Source: Candidatus Lindowiibacteriota bacterium
GTDB taxonomy: Bacteria > Lindowbacteria > 2-12-FULL-62-27
NCBI GenBank assembly: GCA_023249255.1
Contig: JAHFCY010000019.1
Location: 1 to 18,837 of the forward strand
DNA length: 18,837 nucleotides
Reading direction: 5' to 3'
Part shown: one piece after another, positions 5,777 through 8,513 of the stretch
How positions within the stretch are numbered: position 1 is the stretch's first letter
Layout: every line of letters starts with the position of its first letter
Program-made: the position numbers and the translations under genes
The notes under the pieces: generated by a model
What the model saw: the letters and a program-made list of their open reading frames with translations, nothing else
Databases searched by the model: none
What the model was told of the DNA's origin: nothing

Positions 5777-6658
5777 TCACCCGATCCGAACAATCCTGTG
5801 ATTTGCCGCCACAGACTCGTCCAGATTCAGGACGTAATCCGCGCGCGTGTGAAAATTTCGCGTCTCAATGTCGATGGTCACCATCCATGCGGTCGGTTTC
5901 GGCGTGAGAATTGACTGAAGAGACTGGAGATCTTTTTCCGGCATGACGGTGGACGGTATCTGAATCGACCTGTCGGGATTTCGCCGAAGATCGTCGATGT
6001 AATTTCGGACAGCCGGGCCGTAAGCATCCGTAATCATGTCGATCAGCTCGGGGTCGGCGGCGGGCAGATAAATTTTCCCGCTGCCGAACGTCGTGATCAG
6101 CGGGCGGATGCGGCCAAACGCCGACTCGTCTCGAAATCCGCGCACGAAACTCAGTTCATCCACGGTTTCAAACGGCCCGTTCCTCGGCGATACGTCTTCA
6201 CCGGAATAGTCGAGCCGCTCCGCGCCGCTCGGACGCGGATCGTCGTCCGCGTCAACCCAATCCAGGGCGCACGACAGGGCGCGTTGCTCAAAGCGCTCGT
6301 GTTTCAGCAGGGCCGCAACAAGCCGTTGGATCGGCTCGCCGACGATCAGGTCGTTCAGCCGGTTGACGTTGAGTTTCGCCTCGGGCGGCGACATCCGGAT
6401 TGTCACCTTGAATTCATCCAGATCAAATTCCTGCGCGCCGCCGGCCAGCGCATCGAGTTGATCCGATGACGCCGCGCCAAGAGCCATTTCAAGTTTGCTG
6501 AGAAGACTCCGCGCCTCGGCCATCTGCGCGGCCCGGCGCGCCCGGTCAAACGAAAGTCTGGATCGCAGGTCCACGTCCGTGACAAGCGCGACCAGGGTCA
6601 GGGTCACGACAAGAGCGAGCGGCAGAGCGGCGCCGCGGTCAGACCGGGATATGGCCAT
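5777..6658 (-). CDS. gspK: Minor pseudopilin GspK
   Basis: GspK caps the tip of the T2SS pseudopilus together with GspI and GspJ. The 293-residue protein has a 9-residue leader (MAISRSDRG) with cleavage expected after Gly9, and a hydrophobic helix at 10-27. Like most GspK proteins it lacks the Glu at mature position 5. The family landmarks PPEAKLNVNRLND (91-103), ALDWVDADDDPRPSGAE (131-147) and a TTFGSGKIY segment (189-197) are all present. The start overlaps the end of gspJ by 20 bases, with GGTGA 3 bases before the ATG. Length is typical. Confidence 0.93.
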   Translation of the reverse strand: MAISRSDRGAALPLALVVTLTLVALVTDVDLRSRLSFDRARRAAQMAEARSLLSKLEMALGAASSDQLDALAGGAQEFDLDEFKVTIRMSPPEAKLNVNRLNDLIVGEPIQRLVAALLKHERFEQRALSCALDWVDADDDPRPSGAERLDYSGEDVSPRNGPFETVDELSFVRGFRDESAFGRIRPLITTFGSGKIYLPAADPELIDMITDAYGPAVRNYIDDLRRNPDRSIQIPSTVMPEKDLQSLQSILTPKPTAWMVTIDIETRNFHTRADYVLNLDESVAANHRIVRIG

Positions 6659-7232
6659 TTTTCACCACAAGCCGGAACGGATCGAAAGGCAGAATTTTGA
6701 GATCGTCGGGCGACCGGGGCGCTGACGGGAGGAGGTGAAATGTTATGTAAATCATCGACGGCATTTCCGGTGTCTGATCGACCGGAACGAATTCTCCGGC
6801 CGTGTTCGAATAAATATCTATCCGCGGGGCATCGATCAGTTCGAGCAGAATTTCCTTCGACTCGCGCAGGCCGATGCCATCCGCGATCGAATATCTCGCC
6901 AGATGGTAGACTGGACGATCCGGATCCAGTTCGAAAACGTACCGGACGCGCTCTCGGAGCAGTTTCCCGCCGGGCCGGCCGTAGGTCAAAAATGAAAATC
7001 CGGCGGCGCGATTGTTTTGAATTTCCATCGTGAGAGCCGAAACGCTCAGGTCCAGCTCGGATTGAATGGTTTCCTGCAGAAGCCATTCTTTTCGGACGTG
7101 TTCCGTCTCCGCCGTCGCCGCGGCGGCGATCCGGCGGCCGTTTGACAACACGCTTCCGAGAAGTCCCGCCAGAAGGGCCATGAGCGACACGGCCAGAAGC
7201 AATTCGATCAGGGTAAATCCGCGTTTGTTCAT
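6639..7232 (-). CDS. gspJ: Minor pseudopilin GspJ
   Basis: GspJ forms the pseudopilus tip with GspI and GspK. The 197-residue protein has a short normal leader (MNKRG) and the prepilin signature G-FTLIELLLAVSLMALLAG with Glu at mature position 5, then a beta-rich body (QTPEMPSMIYITFHLL near the end). Its leader of 5 residues contrasts with the repeat-extended leaders of gspG and gspI. The ATG overlaps the gspI stop (ATGA). Confidence 0.93.
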   Translation of the reverse strand: MNKRGFTLIELLLAVSLMALLAGLLGSVLSNGRRIAAAATAETEHVRKEWLLQETIQSELDLSVSALTMEIQNNRAAGFSFLTYGRPGGKLLRERVRYVFELDPDRPVYHLARYSIADGIGLRESKEILLELIDAPRIDIYSNTAGEFVPVDQTPEMPSMIYITFHLLPSAPRSPDDLKILPFDPFRLVVKNGHIPV

Positions 7233-7561
7233 CTATAGAGCGTCAGGCGAATTCCGTCTTTTTCGTCCCTGCGGCGGAATTCCGTCACCACGCGTTGAAC
7301 CCGGATCGGACCCAGCTCGACATCCTCGGACGAAATTTCCCGCGACTCCATCCCGAATTTTTTCATCGCCGATTCCGGGATCATCGCCGCCTGCGCGGCG
7401 GACGCGGATGCGCTTGCCGTCCGCACCAACCGCAGATCGGAGCGGATCACGGCCAGAAGAGACACCATCGCAATCGAAACAAACGCAAGAGCGACCAGAA
7501 TCTCGATCAGGGTGAATCCCGTTTGCCGTTTGCCGTTTGCCGTTTGCCGTTCGGATTTCAT
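7229..7561 (-). CDS. gspI: Minor pseudopilin GspI with repeat-encoded leader
   Basis: GspI is a minor pseudopilin of the tip complex. The 110-residue protein carries the signature G-FTLIEILVALAFVSIAMVSLL with Glu at mature position 5, and ends RVQRVVTEFRRRDEKDGIRLTLYR, as expected for a short GspI. The leader is 15 residues (MKSERQTANGKRQTG), longer than the 5-10 usual for T2SS, and most of it is encoded by a perfect 7-base tandem repeat. The ATG overlaps the gspH stop (ATGA), which fixes the start upstream of the repeat. Any change in repeat number not a multiple of three would put gspI out of frame. Confidence 0.92.
   Translation of the reverse strand: MKSERQTANGKRQTGFTLIEILVALAFVSIAMVSLLAVIRSDLRLVRTASASASAAQAAMIPESAMKKFGMESREISSEDVELGPIRVQRVVTEFRRRDEKDGIRLTLYR
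7519..7551. repeat. Perfect 7-base tandem repeat in the gspI leader
   Basis: The plus strand holds four perfect copies of GTTTGCC at 7521-7548, with two matching bases before and three after. On the coding strand this is (CGGCAAA)n, and three units encode the 7-residue phrase QTANGKR. It lies between the gspI start codon and the prepilin peptidase cleavage site. Confidence 0.95.
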
Positions 7562-8037
7562 TCTTCCCGCTCCACCCGGATTGCGCCAAGCCTGTCGATC
7601 CGCCAGATGCGCCGGTCTTCCTGCGCGGCCACAAGATGAATCGAAAATGGCGGGAACGTCCCCAGCTCGTTAAAATCGAATTCGGGTTCCATCGATGATA
7701 GCGGCCGGCCGTTTTCCTCGATGCCTTCGATTCGAAACGTGGACAGATCGAATCTGGCAAGGGACGTATCAGCGCGAAGAAGTGTGAATGTCGAGGGCTG
7801 CGTGATGCGAATTCGAAGGGGGCGGGCGTCCGGCCGGTTGTGCGGCACGAGGGGTTCCCGGACAGCCCTGCGGGCGCCGCGTTCGATGAAATGTTCGAGC
7901 CCCCGAAAATCGCGGTCCTCGGGCGTGTATAGAAAAGCGGAGAGGCGGGGCGCGGCCATCGTCAGGACCAGCCCCATGATCGCCACGACAATCAACAATT
8001 CGATCAGGGTGAATGCGGATTGTTGTCGGCCAATCAA
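7558..8037 (-). CDS. gspH: Minor pseudopilin GspH (TTG start)
   Basis: GspH is the minor pseudopilin that joins the tip complex to the GspG shaft. The signature FTLIELLIVVAIMGLVLTMAAPRLSAF is clear, with Glu at mature position 5. I start at the TTG at 8037 (159 residues, leader MIGRQQSA): it overlaps the gspG stop as TTGA, as at neighbouring junctions, and AGGGG lies 5 bases upstream. A TTG at 8058 would add seven residues. The residue before the cleavage site is Ala where prepilins nearly always have Gly, which may slow processing. The stop overlaps the gspI ATG. Confidence 0.9.
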   Translation of the reverse strand: MIGRQQSAFTLIELLIVVAIMGLVLTMAAPRLSAFLYTPEDRDFRGLEHFIERGARRAVREPLVPHNRPDARPLRIRITQPSTFTLLRADTSLARFDLSTFRIEGIEENGRPLSSMEPEFDFNELGTFPPFSIHLVAAQEDRRIWRIDRLGAIRVEREE

Positions 8038-8513
8038 GGCGACCCCTGAAGGTTCCAACTTTCGATGTCCGCAGCGTCGCCGGTGCCCCCTTCCGCGCCA
8101 TCCGATCCGTAGCAGAGGATGTCAAAATCGGGATCGTGCAAGCCCGGCGACAGGTAAACGTAGTCGTGCGCCCATGGATCTTTCGGAACGGCTTTTTGCT
8201 TGAGATACCCGCCCTCACGCCACTTCGGCGGTTTAGGATCGGTCTGCGGGTTTTCGACGAGCGCGCGAAGCCCCTGCTCCGTCGTGGGAGGCTTGTTGTT
8301 GTCGACGGCGTACAATTCGATCGCGGATGACAATGTCTGAATGTCCGCCGACGCTTTGATCCGCTTGGCCTGCCCAAGATGGCCAATCAGCCGGGGCGCG
8401 ATCAACACCGCCAGAAGACCGATAATCGACACGACAATCAGAATTTCGATCAGGGTGAATCCCTTGACACCCTGTTGCCTGTTGCCCGTTGCCTGTTGCC
8501 GCTTCGCTTTCAC
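8034..8513 (-). CDS. gspG: Major pseudopilin GspG (GTG start, repeat-encoded leader)
   Basis: GspG builds the pseudopilus shaft. The mature part begins FTLIEILIVVSIIGLLAVLIAPRL with Glu at position 5 and contains the hallmarks PPTTEQGLRALVENP, DPWAHDYVYLSPG and the C-terminal calcium-loop region YGSDGAEGGTGDAADIESW. I start at the GTG at 8513 (159 residues), which overlaps the gspF stop as GTGA and has AAGGCGG 4 bases upstream. The open frame continues further up, but that part is a shadow of gspF. The leader (MKAKRQQATGNRQQGVKG, 18 residues) is about twice the usual T2SS length because a 7-base tandem repeat encodes its middle. Confidence 0.95.
   Translation of the reverse strand: MKAKRQQATGNRQQGVKGFTLIEILIVVSIIGLLAVLIAPRLIGHLGQAKRIKASADIQTLSSAIELYAVDNNKPPTTEQGLRALVENPQTDPKPPKWREGGYLKQKAVPKDPWAHDYVYLSPGLHDPDFDILCYGSDGAEGGTGDAADIESWNLQGSP
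8471..8500. repeat. 7-base tandem repeat in the gspG leader
   Basis: Four copies of TGTTGCC on the plus strand occupy 8473-8500, the third copy being CGTTGCC, with two matching bases before. On the coding strand the unit is GGCAACA and encodes RQQATGNRQQ between the GTG start and the peptidase cleavage site. The unit differs from the gspI one (GGCAAAC) by two positions. Confidence 0.93.

Follow-up and report, generated by a model that had tools for sequence, protein, structure and literature searches.

A gspI-like gene in the genome of a Candidatus Lindowiibacteriota bacterium carries, between its start codon and the prepilin cleavage site, a perfect array of heptanucleotides; the array is probably a local instance of a dispersed heptanucleotide repeat of known type, tolerated in leaders which are cleaved off and kept in frame by selection. 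Related arrays are scattered over the same genome, where most of them lie in N-terminal export signals, and orthologous leaders in relatives are free of them.

The gspI leader and its operon

Within the window (the whole contig analysed, 18,837 nt) the array occupies 7519–7551 on the minus strand and consists of 4.7 copies of CGGCAAA in 33 bp without a mismatch (TRF score 66, 100% match). The coding strand reads AACGGCAAACGGCAAACGGCAAACGGCAAACGG, the first base being no more than 12 bases from the ATG (7561–7559) and the last at the cleavage motif, and specifies RQTANGKRQT; the N-terminus of the deduced protein is MKSERQTANGKRQT/GFTLIE (leader/prepilin cleavage motif). The length of the array is far above chance expectation: the matched tandem overlap is 26 nt, whereas 300 simulated windows (order-1 Markov) contained none above 12 nt at periods from 5 to 9, so that the repeat reported in the first-pass annotation does exist.

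The gene (7229–7561, minus strand) encodes a GspI-like minor pseudopilin with a prepilin cleavage and methylation motif (N_methyl, PF07963; 23.5 bits, cut-off 21.2). Its score with the curated GspI model TIGR01707 is 28.8 bits, under the cut-off of 44.35, which is why it is named here by its place between gspH and gspJ and by the prepilin motif. The surrounding operon codes for type II secretion, running from gspC to gspK, with further genes following at the positions of gspL, gspM, and gspN. Reading frames are tightly joined: on the minus strand, the GTG start of gspG (major pseudopilin, 8034–8513; TIGR01710, 151 bits, cut-off 88.85) overlaps the gspF stop (GTGA), the stop codon of a gspH-like pseudopilin gene (7558–8058) overlaps the gspI start (ATGA), and the ATG of a gspJ-like pseudopilin gene (6639–7232) overlaps the gspI stop. 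A second heptamer array, missed by the first-pass annotation, is located at 8471–8500 in the gspG leader; it is imperfect, with 4.3 copies of CCTGTTG (CAACAGG on the coding, that is, minus strand), one unit being a variant, and gives KAKRQQATGNRQQGVK/GFTLIE.

Related heptamers in the source genome and its relatives

Pattern searches of the whole genome revealed 13 arrays of GGCAA-type heptamers, while a reversed control pattern gave fewer matches. The units stand head to tail beyond chance and one word family recurs at many loci, as is characteristic of dispersed heptanucleotide repeats; the exact gspI word, GGCAAAC, forms an array at gspI only. Ten of the 13 arrays are inside N-terminal export signals and the other three just upstream of exported genes. 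Eight of the ten fall within the hydrophobic stretch of a signal peptide, of Sec or lipoprotein type, and are oriented so as to read LLPVACC (for example, LLLPVACCLLPSDKAYA and LFPVACSLLPVNFAYA); the two in prepilin leaders, gspI and gspG, have the opposite orientation and read RQQATGN or RQTANGK. The chance of finding ten of twelve or thirteen arrays in export signals is near 1e-13, with these signals set at 3% of the genome (an assumed, upper value) and classified by eye, post hoc, and without a predictor. The mature parts of the array-bearing genes include a solute-binding lipoprotein, beta-helix, kelch, and TPR proteins, and a PorV-like membrane protein; the domains downstream of the arrays are from families whose members are mostly extracytoplasmic.

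About 0.98 Mb of the genome was also sampled by stretches chosen without regard to repeats. This sample holds 14 period-7 arrays of any word, three of them in or beside export leaders, among which is a third prepilin gene with an array of a different word (GCCGGGC). Most of the remaining arrays fall outside core coding sequence, and for this reason the general tendency is read as avoidance of constrained coding sequence; the GGCAA family is instead found mainly in translated export signals, which count as weakly constrained. Export signals are not the sole sites, as some arrays are inside enzymes. In one enzyme-like frame with an AFDGDGDRC motif (L080:11225-11329), 7-base and 8-base tandem arrays occur together, apparently in frame, as if they formed a loop insertion.

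The nearest named genome is that of Candidatus Lindowbacteria RIFCSPLOWO2_12_FULL_62_27. In two genomes of the same family the orthologs were without heptamers at these sites and had ordinary signal peptides or leaders, such as MKRLALLVCLAAVCWLWPVAGWG and MKKEMFLLSLLMFCPTLRAWA, which strengthens the case that the signal peptides were correctly recognized and that the arrays are of lineage-specific origin. The gspI leader of a relative is simply MSRPVRN/G, with no heptamer; in one relative it is the gspH leader that is repeat-bearing, with another heptamer (GGATTGC).

Orthologs without arrays also bear on the possibility that the heptamers bind a protein, as DNA or as mRNA, and thereby co-regulate exported proteins. 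Many arrays are indeed at or just before the starts of exported genes, and a function as regulatory sites has been suggested for dispersed heptamers in other bacteria, as with TAACTGA of Beggiatoaceae (PMC4679880, PMC2700814). Yet the orientation of the arrays is not fixed to a strand but tracks what the protein needs, a basic leader or a hydrophobic core, the gspI word differs from the common word of the genome, and words differ between genomes. Mainly because orientation follows protein need and orthologs do without the arrays, such a regulatory role is considered improbable. Still less credit is given to an effect on translation, whereby the repeat would keep the early gspI mRNA unstructured and allow more initiation: folding predicted for the start region is less stable when there are four units instead of one (−17.3 versus −22.2 kcal/mol), but this is a single comparison of windows that are similar in length and not identical, and base composition is different in the opposite orientation seen in signal peptides.

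Leader arrays in other bacteria and the question of a switch

Among 107 loci from other genomes, with the 75 nt before prepilin motifs taken as leader windows, 16 period-7 arrays were found in 24.7 kb of leader and 18 in 811 kb elsewhere, an about 29-fold difference. All other periods from 4 to 12 combined gave three arrays in leaders versus 137 elsewhere; thus, enrichment in leaders is confined to period 7. The words vary (GGATTGC, AAATCCG, GCAATCC, CTCCGAA, and others). Most of these leader arrays are from Nitrospirota, with additional ones in a Lindowbacteria relative and in a Legionellaceae genome, and since so few lineages are represented, they are not independent; some loci may also be duplicates. 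In Nitrospirota the leader word is dispersed genome-wide as well, including sites within enzymes and in intergenic sequence. At least three GGCAA-type units were detected in 14 of 290 sampled genomes, some of them in the basic n-region of signal peptides; GCAATCC adjoins the prepilin motif in four of 295 genomes of a phylum scan and is, therefore, restricted to few genomes. Three type II secretion loci of Nitrospirota (L166, L169, and L164) have, ahead of GFTLLE or GFTLIE, heptamers in one orientation (GGATTT, GGATTGC, encoding IADCGLRIAD) followed by the complementary GCAATCC (NPQSAIRNPQSK); as complementary heptamers are present in one leader, the leader mRNA could form a hairpin.

The proposal of the first-pass annotation that the gspI repeat is tolerated by virtue of its position in a cleaved leader is thus strengthened by a pattern which recurs in export leaders of this and other genomes. 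The same annotation had suggested a phase switch by gain or loss of a unit; slipped-strand mispairing would then toggle gspI and maybe other genes with leader repeats. A precedent exists in Opa of Neisseria, where a CTCTT repeat in the region coding for the cleaved leader is a proven switch with a rate of about 1e-3 (PMC3960869). The layout at gspI is the same, a non-triplet repeat in the 5′ part of the gene, where the cleaved leader of an exported protein is encoded, which made the idea worth testing; the repeat is, moreover, common to several exported proteins of one genome. A second precedent, neuO of E. coli K1, also has heptamers in its 5′ coding region (AAGACTC); there, expression needs a unit number divisible by three, the number ranges from 3 to 53 and is most often 20, and the gene is OFF in 65.6% of 64 genomes (PMC13001214). 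The arrays considered here differ from both: unlike Opa, with its unit of five and measured switching, they have few units (2.3–4.7), and those in leaders keep the frame almost without exception; against the 3–53 units of neuO, which is OFF in two thirds of genomes, the gspI array has 4.7, and the neuO repeat is not presented in PMC13001214 as a cleaved export leader.

Across phyla, 18 of 19 leader arrays are open in the core frame from an upstream start codon, which is ATG in 14 of the 18 as compared with two of 38 alternative frames. In the nineteenth the core frame is interrupted by a stop codon, and this array is probably not translated. Free switching would leave about a third of such arrays in frame; on that expectation the probability of the outcome is 3e-8 (relatedness ignored), with the reservation that assemblies give majority alleles, so that minority OFF variants could hide behind the in-frame bias. 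The retained frame argues for selection against frame changes rather than for a useful switch.

The frame arithmetic of the first-pass annotation is right, three 7-bp units being equal to seven residues, and in a simulation of copy number at gspI one-unit changes would shift GspI out of frame. The further claim of that annotation, that a one-unit change would disturb the coupling to gspJ, holds in part: with one unit less (or two more) translation would terminate after 15–22 amino acids, and the nearest start in the core frame would be a TTG at 7587–7589 (minus strand), but with one unit more a 111-residue out-of-frame product would end at a stop at 7233–7235, right beside the gspJ ATG at 7232. 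With one unit more or two less, the core frame would have no start codon. Removal of three units would leave MKSERQT/G, a seven-residue leader equal in length to the MSRPVRN/G of the relative. Because the relative's leader length is restored in this way, the history of gspI looks like an in-frame expansion by three units, or 21 bp, which also tells against a switch.

OFF-state genes were sought in the source genome, and the two candidates, one without a clear start codon (C201) and one with its ATG in another frame (C209a), were not convincing. The former (contig C201, L234:3736-3830) is a family 5 solute-binding lipoprotein with the heptamer in its signal peptide and no in-frame ATG, GTG, or TTG before the array. 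Its translation may begin at an unusual codon (ATC would be needed for IKRFLCFQIP) or at a TTG within the array, or else the gene may be out of frame. The genes affected include a protease, a solute-binding lipoprotein, and parts of the secretion machine, and do not resemble a set of variable surface antigens. With in-frame arrays of few units, in a family common to many unrelated genes of the genome, gspI is not marked as a controlled switch; phase switching of gspI is unlikely, as is phase variation of the other leader-repeat genes, and rare slippage is compatible with the data.

Origin and significance of the leader arrays

Dispersed heptamers are known from several bacteria, among them the STRR of Calothrix, GGGAATC of Xanthomonas and Nostoc, TAACTGA of Beggiatoaceae, and elements of Geobacter metallireducens (PMC4692102, PMC4679880, PMC2700814); for TAACTGA a regulatory role has been suggested (PMC4679880, PMC2700814). 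According to two of these reports, heptamer arrays outnumber the other classes of longer repeats in many bacteria (PMC4679880, PMC4692102). The arrays described here share with the known ones the period of 7, the few units, the presence of one word family at many loci, the scattering among unrelated lineages and, as far as the sample taken without regard to repeats goes, a location mostly outside core coding sequence. They differ in that the known ones were described mainly between genes, whereas the main family here is in translated export signals, in frame, and in an orientation that suits the peptide.

The likely course of events begins with replication slippage, which would have created and extended the array within the gspI leader. 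Apart from its start codon and a glycine ahead of the cleavage site, the cleaved leader presumably needs little more than some positive charge; extra residues should therefore be harmless, as the prepilin peptidase would remove them. Frame-breaking changes would be eliminated by selection, which would leave as the surviving allele a short ancestral leader plus three units (21 bp, seven residues). The same process would also account for the arrays of the gspG leader and of another prepilin gene and, with the repeat reversed, for those which form part of hydrophobic Sec signal-peptide cores; arrays would persist where a protein needs a kind of residue rather than an exact sequence, and those persisting in export signals would be heptamers that lack stops in any frame and have the right polarity in one orientation. 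The recurrence of a single word throughout one genome does not follow from local slippage alone.

A wider reading, which we put forward tentatively and think rather doubtful, is that heptanucleotide arrays are recurrent raw material for export signals in several unrelated lineages, slippage products serving again and again to remake signal peptides and prepilin leaders, since a heptamer array gives one seven-residue cycle in every frame, an LLPVACC core or a basic RQQATGN leader depending on orientation. In literature on repeats in prepilin leaders and on heptamers with signal peptides this pattern was not found, most of the subscription literature being outside the scope of the search. Dispersed heptamers and leader repeats are already known; what appears to be undescribed is their in-frame, protein-suited concentration in prepilin leaders and signal peptides across phyla, a claim limited by the post hoc classification and the few lineages. 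As a measured case, the arrays illustrate how short repeats enter coding sequence at places where amino-acid composition alone matters, and they show that a non-triplet repeat following the start codon does not by itself indicate a switch. Annotators should be aware that leaders such as RQTANGKRQT or NPQSAIRNPQSK derive from repeats. Coding DNA would be safer with periods of 6, 9, or 12, and yet enrichment is confined to period 7; this is relevant to the prevalence of heptamers among bacterial genomes, so far unexplained.

Repeats of other periods were seen in the source genome as well. On contig C67 (L084:1171-1321) tandem repeats of a 10-mer (GAAGACGGAA), an 11-mer (TTCTCCAATCC), and a 7-mer (TGCCTGT) follow each other in a row from upstream into the signal peptide of a PorV-like protein, so that repeats may have given rise to nearly all of its predicted N-terminus. 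A dispersed palindromic octamer element, two to three copies of TGATATCA followed at short distance by two to three copies of ATATCATG, occurs at five places in the sample (L046:9929-9973, L068:337-389, L080:1598-1650, L233:10797, and L244:10), and 10-base tandem repeats of the types CACACACAGA, TCTGTCTGTG, and CTCCCGCCTT are present at several loci, for example, L042:9444, L053:2635-2746, and L082:270-308.
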